From an uncultured SAR86 cluster bacterium (GTDB lineage: Bacteria > Pseudomonadota > Gammaproteobacteria > Magnimaribacterales > AG-339-G14): 64,000 nt of DNA. The position numbers and the translations under genes were made by a program. The notes beneath the pieces are model-generated. The model was not told where the DNA came from and ran no database searches. It saw nothing but the letters and a program-made list of their open reading frames with translations. The DNA is taken from NCBI GenBank assembly GCA_902540995.1, contig CACBOY010000001.1, positions 62,001 to 126,000 on the forward strand, read 5' to 3'. Below are positions 31,387-36,665 of the stretch, one piece after another. Position 1 is the stretch's first letter; every line of letters begins with the position of its first letter.

Positions 31387-31404
31387 ATTCCAAAATTGTA
31401 ATAC

Positions 31405-31423
31405 TATACCCCCCATGGGTATA
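31405..31423. promoter_or_regulatory. Putative CsoR operator TATACCC-CCCAT-GGGTATA
   Basis: Perfect 7-bp inverted repeat with 5-bp spacer, matching the general TACCC-N5/6-GGGTA architecture of CsoR sites; lies at the head of an operon that ends with a csoR-family gene. Confidence 0.7.
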
Positions 31424-31446
31424 AGAATTATATTTTTTTTTGCTTA

Positions 31447-32016
31447 ATGACTTCTCTGTATAGTCAAGCAAGACCAATTTCTTATCCAGAAGGATTCACC
31501 CTCATGTCTCATTCTGATATTTACAAAGACTCAGTCTATTTTCATTATTCTCCTAGTTTTAAGTATTCAGTAGGCTTGGAAGTAGCAAAAGATGATTATT
31601 TTGATGATGAGTATTCTTTTTTTAGATTTACTTATTTACTAAACAGAAAAAATACACAAAATTCTCAAAGCAATTTATATTTTCAATCAGGCGTTGACCC
31701 TGAAAACTTTGATCGTCATTTTTATGGTCTCCATGGTGATTGGGAAACGAGAAGATGGTTTGTAGGCTTTGGATATAAAGAAAGCTTCAATGACTTTGAA
31801 GATTTTTCTGAAAAATATCTTCAATTCGGGATAGCACCCTACCTAGGAAAATATGGCGACTTGCATACCTGGTTGATGTTCAAAACAAAAAAGAATTCTT
31901 TAGGAGATAGCTGGTCAACTTATCCTGTAATTAAATTTTTCAAAGGTGATTTTTTAATCGAGCTTGGTTACAACAACAAAACAAGAACCGATGCTCATCT
32001 CATGTACAGATTTTAA
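31447..32016 (+). CDS. Small outer membrane beta-barrel-like protein (5' end likely at ATG 31415 if a T-tract indel is corrected)
   Basis: Alternating beta pattern and terminal ...HLMYRF; first gene of the CsoR operon. Listed ORF lacks a full signal peptide. Confidence 0.55.
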   Translation: MTSLYSQARPISYPEGFTLMSHSDIYKDSVYFHYSPSFKYSVGLEVAKDDYFDDEYSFFRFTYLLNRKNTQNSQSNLYFQSGVDPENFDRHFYGLHGDWETRRWFVGFGYKESFNDFEDFSEKYLQFGIAPYLGKYGDLHTWLMFKTKKNSLGDSWSTYPVIKFFKGDFLIELGYNNKTRTDAHLMYRF

Positions 32017-32025
32017 GGAGGAAAT

Positions 32026-32433
32026 ATGAGACTAATATGTTTAATTTTAATGTTCATGGCGTCAGTAATTTTTGCCGAAAAAAATCATGATTCCCATGAG
32101 CACCAAGGTCATGCAGTTCATCAAAATGATGTTTACGTGGACGGAAAAAAATTCAAAATAGATAAAGAAAGGTTCGATGAATTTAAAAAAAATCTTAAAG
32201 ATGTTCAAGTTGCAATAATTAATGTTCAAGGCATGGTCTGTGATTTTTGTGCCCGAGGTATCGAAAAGGCTTTTCTTAAAGATACCAAGGTAAAAAAAAT
32301 AGATGTTGACCTTGAAAATGGAAAAGTTGTGATTGCCTATTCTTTAAATAAGAAAATTGAATTTAAGGAAATCAAAGAAAAAATATTAATGAATGGTCAA
32401 AACGCAACAGACTATAAGCTGATGAAAATTTAA
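32026..32433 (+). CDS. Secreted heavy-metal-associated (HMA) domain protein with His-rich N-terminus
   Basis: Signal peptide MRLICLILMFMASVIFA; NHDSHEHQGHAVHQ; HMA motif GMVCDFCARGIEKAF; strong aaggagg SD. Confidence 0.88.
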   Translation: MRLICLILMFMASVIFAEKNHDSHEHQGHAVHQNDVYVDGKKFKIDKERFDEFKKNLKDVQVAIINVQGMVCDFCARGIEKAFLKDTKVKKIDVDLENGKVVIAYSLNKKIEFKEIKEKILMNGQNATDYKLMKI

Positions 32434-32434
32434 C

Positions 32435-32800
32435 ATGTTTGACCGATCTGCTAATCTCATATCTTTGTTTGCATCTTCATCTACATTGATATGTTGTGCA
32501 CTACCTGCGGTATTTATAGTTATTGGAGCAGGAGCAACTTTTGCAAGCATCATTTCTATATTCCCTTTTTTGGTAGTGATTTCAAAATATAAAGTTTCTA
32601 TAACTTTGGTATCTCTTCTTATATTAGTTTTTGCTGGCTACATAAATTACAGAACCTATTATCTTCCTTGTCCAGCAGATCCCGAGTTAGGGAGAATTTG
32701 TCTTCAAACCAGAAAACGTTCAAGGTCAATTTACTATTTTTCAGTTATTCTCTTTACGTTTGCTACAATATTTACTTATCTCATTCCAAATATCATTTAA
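32435..32800 (+). CDS. MerT-like inner membrane protein
   Basis: STLICCALPAVFIVIGAGATFASI, several TM segments, CPADPELGRICLQTRKRSRSIYY. Confidence 0.65.
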   Translation: MFDRSANLISLFASSSTLICCALPAVFIVIGAGATFASIISIFPFLVVISKYKVSITLVSLLILVFAGYINYRTYYLPCPADPELGRICLQTRKRSRSIYYFSVILFTFATIFTYLIPNII

Positions 32801-32807
32801 ATAAATC

Positions 32808-33068
32808 ATGAGTCATCCTAGTCATAAAAAAGAATTATCAAGTGTAAGGCGGATTGAAGGTCAGCTAAGAGGTATCGCTAAAATGATTGAAGAAGAGAAA
32901 TACTGTGTCGATATACTCAATCAAATCAAAGCTGTTAGAAAATCTATTGCTTCAGTGGAAGGAAAAATCTTAAAAACACATCTTGAGGAATGTGTTAAGG
33001 ACTCTTTGAAAGGTGAAAAAGAGTTCGAAAGCAAGGTCGAAGAAATAATTAAAGTCCTTAAAAGATAA
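32808..33068 (+). CDS. csoR: CsoR/RcnR/FrmR-family metal-sensing repressor (Cu(I)-type C-H-C)
   Basis: VRRIEGQLRGIAKMIEEEKYCVDILNQI...KTHLEECV; C32, H57, C61 have the Cys-25-His-4-Cys spacing of CsoR. Confidence 0.88.
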   Translation: MSHPSHKKELSSVRRIEGQLRGIAKMIEEEKYCVDILNQIKAVRKSIASVEGKILKTHLEECVKDSLKGEKEFESKVEEIIKVLKR

Positions 33069-33075
33069 AAGAACG

Positions 33076-33828
33076 TTAATCTAGTCTTGAAGCGATTTCA
33101 TTCAAATGGCTGAAAGTCTCTAAATTGGCGTTCATGATAATTTCCATTTCGGGAACCGTTTCACTTATATCGCCCATTTTGGTTAAAACCATGTGAACGT
33201 CGTCGTGATAAGGAAGCTTACTCATGTCCTCCAACCAACGACTTAGATTTTCGAAGTCACTATAGTCATAGAGATTGGTAAATTGCGTATTCAGTTGAGC
33301 AATTTCAACATAGGCTGAAAAATCGGCAATGGTGACGTGGTCTCCTGCAATAAATTTATTTTTTTTAAGCCACTGAGTTTCTAATGCTTTGAGGGCATTA
33401 TTAAACATTTTTTGAGACATATTGATTAAGTCTTCTGAAAGTCCTAAGTCAGGTCTTAAAATTGGCGCAAAATAACCAGTGGATGCCTCTTTGATACTTC
33501 GGTGATGATAGTGAAGGTAATGATCGACCTTTCCTCTCAGTTCGGGATCTTCTGGGTACAAATCGTCCCATTTGTGTTTGTTACATAAGTAACACATGAT
33601 TGCGATCGACTCCGATAATAAATATCCACTTGCAGGATCTTCCAAGCCAGGAATGGTTCCATTGGGATATTTTTCCAAATAAGAGGGATGACGAGTTCCG
33701 TTTTCTTTTGGAGAACCTGGTGCAGTAATAATCAACTCAAAAGGTAATTTTTTATAAAGCATCATCCATAGAACTGTCCTTACAGCCTGAGACATTGGAA
33801 CGCCAAAAATCTTAAGTTTACTGCTCAT
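33076..33828 (-). CDS. Glutathione S-transferase family protein
   Basis: GST N-domain pattern (KLKIFGVPMSQAVRTVLWML-like, PNGTIPGLEDP, LLSESIAIMCYL). Confidence 0.85.
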   Translation of the reverse strand: MSSKLKIFGVPMSQAVRTVLWMMLYKKLPFELIITAPGSPKENGTRHPSYLEKYPNGTIPGLEDPASGYLLSESIAIMCYLCNKHKWDDLYPEDPELRGKVDHYLHYHHRSIKEASTGYFAPILRPDLGLSEDLINMSQKMFNNALKALETQWLKKNKFIAGDHVTIADFSAYVEIAQLNTQFTNLYDYSDFENLSRWLEDMSKLPYHDDVHMVLTKMGDISETVPEMEIIMNANLETFSHLNEIASRLD

Positions 33829-33830
33829 GT

Positions 33831-34673
33831 TTAATCAAGATCACTGGCATCATGTCTTTCAGGAATTGCATTGTCTTCCGGTCCACTAGGAGGTCGCCCT
33901 ACTCTAGCTCCTCTTTTGAAAGCAGGTCTCTCAGAAATTTCCTCAGCCCAACGAACGACATTTTTATAAGATTTCACATCTAAAAATTCTGCGGCATTGT
34001 ATGCATTTTTTAGCACCAAATAACCATACCAAGGATGAATGGCCATATCAGCAATGTTGTATTCATCGCCGCAAATAAATTTTCTATTTTCTAAATTTTT
34101 ATTCAAGACATCTAATTGACGCTTAACTTCCATAGCAAAACGATTGATGGGATATTCAAATTTTTCTGGAGCATAAGCATAAAAGTGTCCAAATCCTCCC
34201 CCCAAGTAAGGAGCGCTACCCATTTGCCAGAAAAGCCATGACATGCACTCTGCTCTTGCAGCAGGATCAGTTGGAATAAACTCCCCAAATTTTTCAGCAA
34301 GGTAAACGAGAATTGCACCGGATTCAAAAACTCTCGTATGTGGCTCTGAACTTCTATCTAAAAGAGCAGGAATTTTAGAATTTGGATTTATTTCAACAAA
34401 ACCACTTCCAAATTGATCGCCATTTCCAATGTTAATCAGATATGCATCATATTCGGCACCTTCGTGTCCCAAAGCCAAAAGTTCTTCAAGCAGAACAGTG
34501 ACCTTGACCCCATTAGGTGTTCCAAGCGAATAAAGTTGCATCGGATGTTTCCCTACCGGAAGCTCTTTATCATGGGTTGAGCCTGAAATTGGTCTGTTTA
34601 TGTTTGCAAATTTACCTCCGCTTTCTTGATCCCAAGTCCATACTTTTGGAGGTGAATATTTTTCGTCTGACAT
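33831..34673 (-). CDS. yghU: Glutathione-dependent disulfide-bond oxidoreductase, YghU-like GST
   Basis: WTWDQESGGKFANINRPISGSTHDKELPVGKHPMQLYSLGTPNGVKVTVLLEELL. Confidence 0.88.
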   Translation of the reverse strand: MSDEKYSPPKVWTWDQESGGKFANINRPISGSTHDKELPVGKHPMQLYSLGTPNGVKVTVLLEELLALGHEGAEYDAYLINIGNGDQFGSGFVEINPNSKIPALLDRSSEPHTRVFESGAILVYLAEKFGEFIPTDPAARAECMSWLFWQMGSAPYLGGGFGHFYAYAPEKFEYPINRFAMEVKRQLDVLNKNLENRKFICGDEYNIADMAIHPWYGYLVLKNAYNAAEFLDVKSYKNVVRWAEEISERPAFKRGARVGRPPSGPEDNAIPERHDASDLD

Positions 34674-34787
34674 GAAGTTTCTCCTATTTTTTGAATACTT
34701 GCTGATTAATCATACTCTCAAAGTAAATAAATTTATGTAAATATAAAAAAATATAAAATCAATTTAAAAAGAAGTTCTGAATAAAAT

Positions 34788-35975
34788 CTAATTTAATTTA
34801 AAAACCTTATTTTCGGAAATGAGGGATGTTATCTCTTCCTCTGAGTAACCCAATTTTGAGAGTATTTCCTCTGTGTGTTCGCCAAGCTTTGGTGCAGGCT
34901 TAGATATCTCACTTGGTGTTTTCTCAAATCGTGCTGCTGGTCTTGCCTGACGAACTTCGCCAAAAGATTCGTAATTCGTTTTTAGAATAGATTCATTGGC
35001 AATTATTTGTTCATTTTCTAATAATTCCATTCGATCAAGTAAGGGTGCGCTGGGCACTCCTTCAGCTTGAAAACGAGCTAAAATTTCATCGCTATTCCAT
35101 TTTGAAATTTCTTCTCCAGTGATTTCTTTTCTTTCCTGGGCATTACTAACCCTGCCTGCAGGTGAGGCAAAACGTTCATCCTCGACCAAATCTTCTCGAT
35201 TTAAAGCTTTACACATACCTTTCCATTCAGCATCTGATACCGCGCCAGCTGTAATATATCTATCTTTTGCTTTATAAATTAAATCTTGTGAGCCTTGAAG
35301 TTTTCTAACATCGATTTCATTTTCGGCAAAAACTATTCCTGCCATTCCCTCGGGCCAAAAAAAAGAAATCATCGAATCAAGCATGGATAATTCAATATGT
35401 TGTCCAATTCCATGTTTTTCTCTTGCATACAAAGCAGAAGAAATTGCTTGGGCAGCAGTTAAAGAAGTTACTTTATCTGCAATTATGATTCTAAACATTT
35501 TAGGTCTACCGGTATCCCTATCGGCTTGAATGTCTGTTGCTCCAGATAAAGCTTGGATGACAGGATCATAAACTCTTGAATTTGCGTAAGGGCCATCATT
35601 TCCAAACCCACTAATGGAGGTATAAATTATCTTAGGATTTATTTTTCTTATTTCCTTTTCGCCAAAACCCATTCTATCGATGGCGCCAGGTCTAAAATTT
35701 TGCATGAATACATCTGCATCTTTCGCTAATTGAAAAAGAATTTTTTTTCCCTCCTCCGACTTCAAATCAATTGCTATAGATTTTTTTCCTCTATTACAAG
35801 AAAAGAAGACTGGGTTTACACCCTTATGAGGAGCAGCCATGTGCCTCACCAATTCTCCTGTTATTGGTTCAACTTTAATGACATCTGCACCTTGATCAGC
35901 CAAAATCATAGCTCCCACAGGACCCGAAACCATGCTTGTCAGGTCTAAAACTTTAATTCCTTTTAAGGGTCCCAT
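34788..35975 (-). CDS. CaiB/BaiF CoA-transferase family protein
   Basis: GIKVLDLTSMVSGPVGAMILADQGADVIKVEP, CNRGKKSIAIDLKSEEGK, QNFRPGAIDRMGF. Confidence 0.93.
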   Translation of the reverse strand: MGPLKGIKVLDLTSMVSGPVGAMILADQGADVIKVEPITGELVRHMAAPHKGVNPVFFSCNRGKKSIAIDLKSEEGKKILFQLAKDADVFMQNFRPGAIDRMGFGEKEIRKINPKIIYTSISGFGNDGPYANSRVYDPVIQALSGATDIQADRDTGRPKMFRIIIADKVTSLTAAQAISSALYAREKHGIGQHIELSMLDSMISFFWPEGMAGIVFAENEIDVRKLQGSQDLIYKAKDRYITAGAVSDAEWKGMCKALNREDLVEDERFASPAGRVSNAQERKEITGEEISKWNSDEILARFQAEGVPSAPLLDRMELLENEQIIANESILKTNYESFGEVRQARPAARFEKTPSEISKPAPKLGEHTEEILSKLGYSEEEITSLISENKVFKLN

Positions 35976-35978
35976 TTT

Positions 35979-36665
35979 TCAATTTGAATAGTTTATCTTC
36001 ATTGCCTTTTGATATGCAGTTCTTTTGGATATTTTATCTCGATATGATGAAATATTTTTAGGGAGAGAAAATTCATAAAATATAGCCCAATCTAGGCAAG
36101 TCATCAAAAAGATATCTGCTAAACCAAACCCATTTTTTAAAATTGTCTCCTGTGATTTTAGATGCTCTTCAATGACATTCAGTTGTTTTAAAAAATATTG
36201 TCTACAAGCTTTTACAACTACTGGAGATTCTCCATATATCTCCTTCAAATCATAATGACGTCTCATCACGTAAAGCGAAGTTTCATCCAATTCACCATAA
36301 ATAAAGTCACACCATTCCTCTTCTTTAGCGATGGAAACTTCATCATTAGGCAAAAAAATATTTTTAGACTTAAAATTTCTTTGAAGATATTTACATATTG
36401 CAAGACTTTCTGACAAGTTTAAGTCTTTGTGCTGCATCGCTGGAATTTTCTGCTTTGGATTTAAAGAAGTAAATTCTTTCGTTTGAGTTTCTCCAGTTCG
36501 AGGTCCTATTGGAATTAATTCATAATCTATTTCCAACTCTTCTGCCATCCATATTGGTCGTAAGGTCCTTGCTGTCCCTGCTCCCCATAGTTTTAGTAAT
36601 ATGCTCATCTTTTCAGTTTGCAAGATTAAAGAATTTCCAAAATCTAGGAATGATCCAGGAAACAA
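35979..36665 (-). CDS. Glutathione S-transferase family protein
   Basis: LKLWGAGTARTLRPIWMAEELEIDYELIPI, NPKQKIPAMQHKDLNLSESLAICKYL. Start possibly at internal Met (MSILLKLWG). Confidence 0.85.
   Translation of the reverse strand: MFPGSFLDFGNSLILQTEKMSILLKLWGAGTARTLRPIWMAEELEIDYELIPIGPRTGETQTKEFTSLNPKQKIPAMQHKDLNLSESLAICKYLQRNFKSKNIFLPNDEVSIAKEEEWCDFIYGELDETSLYVMRRHYDLKEIYGESPVVVKACRQYFLKQLNVIEEHLKSQETILKNGFGLADIFLMTCLDWAIFYEFSLPKNISSYRDKISKRTAYQKAMKINYSN

Follow-up and report, generated by a model that had tools for sequence, protein, structure and literature searches.

A cassette of four co-directional genes was found at positions 31415-33068, on the forward strand, of the analysed stretch of DNA (64 kb in full, hereafter the window), which belongs to an uncultured SAR86 bacterium whose genome assembly comprises 0.98 Mb and is 79% complete. 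The cassette encodes, in this order, a predicted 12-stranded outer-membrane-type beta-barrel of an unnamed family (31447-32016), a secreted His-rich protein with a single HMA domain (32026-32433), a MerT-like inner-membrane protein (32435-32800) and a CsoR-family repressor (32808-33068), all of them on the forward strand. The four open reading frames listed in the initial annotation were thus present, according to the list of open reading frames and the domain searches, and the motifs it had pointed out, namely GMVCDFC in the HMA protein, ICCALP in the MerT-like protein and the C-H-C residues of the repressor (C33, H58 and C62), were recovered and are invariant or nearly so across relatives. 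No publication describing the cassette was found in a search of open-licence full texts. On the 3′ side of the cassette, the opposite strand carries, as judged by eye, genes for glutathione S-transferase-like proteins (33076-33828, 33831-34673 and 35979-36665) and, lying between them within 33076-36665, a probable CoA-transferase (34788-35975).

The HMA domain was identified with a Pfam score of 39.9 bits (cut-off of 24.8, E-value of 5.4e-10), while the signal peptide of this protein was recognized by inspection. The sequence GMVCDFCA was invariant in 36 HMA-protein sequences, and the His-rich N-terminal part was variable. The MerT-like protein scored 22.3 bits against Pfam MerT, under the curated cut-off of 32.9, and this family matched 25 of 38 orthologues (with E-values up to 0.01). 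Moreover, a profile alignment with genuine MerT using hhalign gave a probability of 94% and an E-value of 1.4e-7, and the protein was 18-24% identical to MerT. When the two were aligned, the two adjacent cysteines of helix 1 (C20 and C21) coincided with the Cys pair of MerT, and a second pair (C79/C89) was placed in a loop; these cysteines were invariant or nearly so among the orthologues. The protein therefore appears to be a divergent MerT homologue, and is not classed as MerT. Its AlphaFold2 model was too poor for use (pLDDT of 66).

The repressor matched PF02583 with 95.5 bits (E-value of 2.5e-27), and its residues Y32, C33, H58 and C62, which present the ligand spacing of the Cu(I) type, were invariant in 32 orthologues, as was His6 in the N-terminal part. 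In a ranking of profile scores, the nearest solved structures were those of CsoR (4adz and 4m1p), above InrS and FrmR. CsoR is elsewhere a repressor released from DNA by Cu(I). Copper as the metal and the control of the cassette by CsoR are thus well supported from the sequences. The initial annotation had proposed copper or mercury; copper agrees with the Cu-type residues of CsoR and with the operator described below, while mercury is disfavoured, and mercury resistance was rejected as the main reading, since MerA was found above the cut-off in none of 71 cassette genomes and the repressor is of the copper type.

A palindrome with a G/C tract, as expected for a CsoR operator, was predicted at the promoter of the operon (TACCCCCCATGGGTA, 31407-31421, forward strand; 31406-31422 in its extended form), on the basis of match counts and conservation. 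It had one match in the 64-kb window compared to 0.06 expected, with one mismatch allowed, and was present as a single copy in the host genome and in about one copy in most of the SAR86 genomes bearing the cassette. A palindrome of the same kind appeared at the equivalent position in the loci with a complete 5′ end (L033-L075), and was absent from a distant locus of Legionellales (L076). The sequence also shows a putative -10 element, TACTAT (31402-31407, forward strand), located 7 nt upstream of an ATG at 31415, in an AT-rich genome without a clear -35 element. This ATG lies within the palindrome, an arrangement shared by SAR86, the alphaproteobacteria and several other gammaproteobacteria, so that the operator spells the residues MGI, while in the SAR92-like forms the ATG is found at the 3′ edge of the palindrome. 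In the orthologues, the reading continues in frame from the equivalent ATG (MGI...) into the barrel. Thus, the barrel gene exists as claimed, but the start assigned to it at 31447 has to be replaced by the ATG at 31415, which is almost certainly the true one.

In 20 of 38 orthologous loci, the best-scoring sigma-70 pair ended 7-8 nt upstream of the ATG, for which reason a leaderless or nearly leaderless mRNA is predicted. A leaderless mRNA was demonstrated by 5′-RACE for the nickel operon nreAXY of Mesorhizobium, which likewise has a CsoR/RcnR repressor and a promoter abutting the start codon (PMC12724321). However, the operator of nreAXY lies between the -35 and -10 elements, while that of the cassette covers the end of the -10 element and the start codon. 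A similar palindrome with an embedded ATG precedes an operon encoding a DUF4396 protein, CsoR and a CDF cation efflux protein in another SAR86 genome (L114:2462-4102, genome G079), which is a genuine second use of this design. Further operator matches in two genomes (G058 and G019) belonged to genuine cassettes truncated by contig ends, while those checked in G043, G044, G046, G051, G076, G091, G094, G103 and G126 had no cassette genes and were discarded as apparent chance matches.

In the clade of the window, translation from the ATG within the operator ends after ten codons (31415-31447, forward strand; MGIRIIFFFA and a stop), the TAA overlapping the next ATG (TAATG). The reading frame passes through a run of nine T (T9, 31433-31441, forward strand), and one additional T in this run restores the signal peptide (MGIRIIFFFCLMTSLYSQA), giving MGIRIIFFFCLMTSLYSQARPISY, in agreement with the signal peptides of the orthologues. 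The T9 run, with the signal peptide out of frame, was present in each of the five members of the clade that were examined (the window and L033-L036), which include both single cells and metagenome bins, while the barrel is in frame in the next clade (L037). Downstream of the run, dN/dS ranged from about 0.03 to 0.12 in the frameshifted clade, comparable to the values obtained against the in-frame clade, and the barrel is therefore maintained under strong purifying selection despite its out-of-frame export signal. Bacterial RNA polymerase is subject to slippage on runs of at least seven T (PMC6260861), and transcriptional slippage at the T9 run would be the likeliest way in which the signal peptide is rescued. 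Reinitiation at TAATG is a possible alternative, but its product would be devoid of a signal peptide. The barrel was confidently modelled by AlphaFold2 as one of the outer-membrane type with 12 strands (pLDDT of 86.3 and pTM of 0.80), and its orthologues present a C-terminal F and signal peptides by inspection. Neither Pfam nor NCBIfam families matched it, and a Foldseek search with the model only retrieved generic barrels, with TM values near 0.5, so its function cannot be read from the structure.

The same order of four genes recurred in about 70 genomes, which is far beyond chance, and included SAR86, SAR92/Porticoccaceae, other marine gammaproteobacteria and alphaproteobacteria of the PS1 clade/Rhodobiaceae. 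When contigs from one genome per species were scanned with the HMA protein, 44 loci were obtained, and nearly all of those with enough flanking sequence had the barrel, HMA and MerT-like genes, most of them also csoR, with the order kept. With this conserved synteny, the earlier proposal of a CsoR-controlled metal operon that has no P-type ATPase and spans the outer membrane, the periplasm and the inner membrane is supported as far as sequences go. The MerT-like gene was found in 43 of 151 genomes of the SAR86 order, while the barrel appeared in 12 of 369 genomes of a class-wide sample and in 4 of 399 of a phylum-wide sample, two of the latter being outside the class. The upstream SDR gene adjoins the cassette only in the clade of the window, which indicates that the cassette sits at varying genomic places. 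Moreover, the alphaproteobacterial copies (IMCC14465, PS1 clade and Rhodobiaceae) formed one well-supported group among the gammaproteobacterial ones, in a tree with midpoint rooting and weak deep support, and this position suggests that the cassette was spread by horizontal transfer. Spread by plasmids was discarded, as plasmids gave no match to the barrel and only remote ones to the MerT-like protein, and no viral carriage of the cassette was confirmed. A remote fusion of the MerT-like/HMA type is encoded on a Vibrio plasmid, adjacent to a GDCCVxC (seleno)protein (L136:3736-5380), and represents another little-described metal cassette. In another genome, the cassette was observed near genes resembling, by eye, znuB, znuC, zur and znuA (L140:1-2646, G434).

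At one locus (L139, G235), the genes of the barrel, the HMA protein and the MerT-like protein each overlap the next and follow those of an outer-membrane efflux protein, a multicopper oxidase and CusF, a neighbourhood that links the three to copper. Other distant relatives encode, upstream of the barrel, a small secreted protein rich in Cys and His, one of these proteins being weakly CopL-like, under the cut-off.

The lack of a P-type ATPase in the cassette, noted by the initial annotation, extends to the genome: PF00122 had no match in the 79%-complete assembly, where the HMA domain was found once, without a second HMA protein, and thus a P-type ATPase appeared neither in the operon nor elsewhere in the genome, as opposed to CopA operons. 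Likewise, the possibility that CopA belongs to the same regulon as its main effector finds no support and was rejected, given that the operator occurs once in that genome. Furthermore, P-type ATPases were found in none of 40 near-complete genomes of the SAR86 order, and in 2 of all 151 genomes of this order, only one of these matches being above the cut-off. Among 28 further genomes with the cassette, 23 likewise had no P-type ATPase, and large ones are found among these, for instance G193 (2.4 Mb, 99% complete) and G877 (2.6 Mb, 100% complete). Class-wide, 2 of the 12 barrel genomes had a P-type ATPase above the cut-off vs. about 311 of the 357 others, a split that depends on the threshold to the extent of two genomes at most and is uncorrected for phylogeny or genome size; the corresponding Fisher P-values were 1.6e-7, and 2.4e-5 without SAR86, for genomes that are not phylogenetically independent. 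Heavy-metal RND pumps of the CusA type were found above the family cut-off in none of the 151 genomes of the SAR86 order. Many SAR86 genomes have neither the cassette nor P-type ATPases, so the cassette is not essential. This dearth of ATPases in cassette genomes goes beyond the initial annotation, as do the operator, the start codon embedded in it and the out-of-frame signal peptide.

Different known systems resemble the cassette in part. The csoR-ctpV and copZA operons likewise have CsoR with C-H-C ligands and a short palindromic operator with a G/C tract, but act mainly through a P1B-type ATPase, instead of a MerT-like protein, a secreted HMA protein and a barrel. In merT-merP, a MerT homologue having CC in helix 1 and a further pair of cysteines also adjoins a secreted HMA protein, while the cassette has CsoR rather than MerR, no merA and an additional outer-membrane barrel. 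CopABCD/PcoABCD, too, comprise outer-membrane, periplasmic and inner-membrane copper parts, and the L139 trio lies beside a multicopper oxidase and CusF; however, the cassette has no homologues of CopB, CopC or CopD, its parts being of other families. As read from the sequences, the cassette is real, conserved, linked to copper and free of ATPases, and joins a CsoR switch to a relay of the mer type and a barrel without a name in a new combination.

A Cu(I) detoxification operon derepressed through CsoR, in which a relay of the MerT-like protein, the HMA protein and the barrel works without a P-type ATPase and probably outwards in place of CopA, has in our judgement about an even chance of being the right reading. 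At low copper, CsoR would bind the palindrome over the end of the -10 element and the start codon, blocking transcription, while cytosolic Cu(I) bound by C33-H58-C62 would release it and allow the leaderless mRNA to be made. The secreted HMA protein and the MerT-like protein would then exchange Cu(I) across the inner membrane, by means of the Cys pairs of the latter, and the HMA protein might hand it to the small outer-membrane barrel or hold it near the barrel, with a net direction from MerT-like protein to HMA protein to barrel. Copper sensing and the thiol relay are suggested by the protein families, while the direction and energetics of the relay are inferred, an outward course being favoured because the usual exporter is absent. 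In addition, derepression of CsoR by excess copper and the anti-correlation with ATPases are more suggestive of detoxification or export than of import. Against this, moving Cu(I) outwards from a cytosol buffered at very low free copper costs energy, and nothing that would couple the transport to an energy source was seen. The complete version, namely a widespread exporter that takes the place of CopA in abundant marine bacteria and carries Cu(I) out of the cell from the cytosol by a CsoR-controlled and ATP-free relay of the MerT-like protein, the HMA protein and the barrel, with a leaderless mRNA, a start codon embedded in the operator and, in one SAR86 clade, barrel export through T9 slippage, is put forward tentatively and is somewhat doubtful as a whole.

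Known MerT proteins are importers, and both the MerT homology and the Cys layout would suit an inward route, in which the barrel and the HMA protein capture envelope copper and leave the import of Cu(I) to the MerT-like protein, in the way that MerP and MerT do for Hg(II), either to clear the periplasm or for use; such a movement would also be downhill along the membrane potential. However, control by CsoR would then increase import when the cytosol already has an excess of copper, no cytosolic sink such as MerA was found above the cut-off, and the ATPases for copper removal are mostly absent, so that this route seems unlikely. Alternatively, the His-rich HMA protein and the barrel might hold copper in the envelope, as in the CopABC-type protection of Pseudomonas, with the MerT-like protein only exchanging copper or serving cuproenzyme assembly. 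The multicopper oxidase and CusF beside the L139 trio would fit, but nearly all complete loci keep the MerT-like gene together with both others, and its cysteines are invariant or nearly so, for which reason passage through the membrane is probably central and sequestration is considered decidedly unlikely. More improbable still is another metal (Hg, Ni/Co or Zn) sensed by a CsoR/RcnR relative of other specificity. The resemblance to MerT, the invariant His6, which recalls the N-terminal ligands of InrS/RcnR, and the related CsoR at L114 beside an efflux protein of the CDF family, which frequently serves Zn, Cd or Co, speak for it, whereas the precedence of CsoR structures over InrS and FrmR, the invariance of C33-H58-C62 and Y32, the lack of MerA and the copper context of L139 speak against it.

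Both SAR86 and SAR92 belong to the abundant bacterioplankton of the sea, and SAR86 is almost entirely devoid of P-type ATPases, so the cassette, which tends to be found where these ATPases are absent, is a concrete and testable candidate for copper handling there. It would bring transport of the MerT type to copper, add an uncharacterised barrel family and provide an instance in which an operator and a start codon are one and the same sequence. Moreover, the frameshift at T9 makes a free-living bacterium a natural case in which to test rescue by slippage. Overall, the cassette may represent an uncharacterised substitute for the usual copper-pumping enzymes in marine bacteria.
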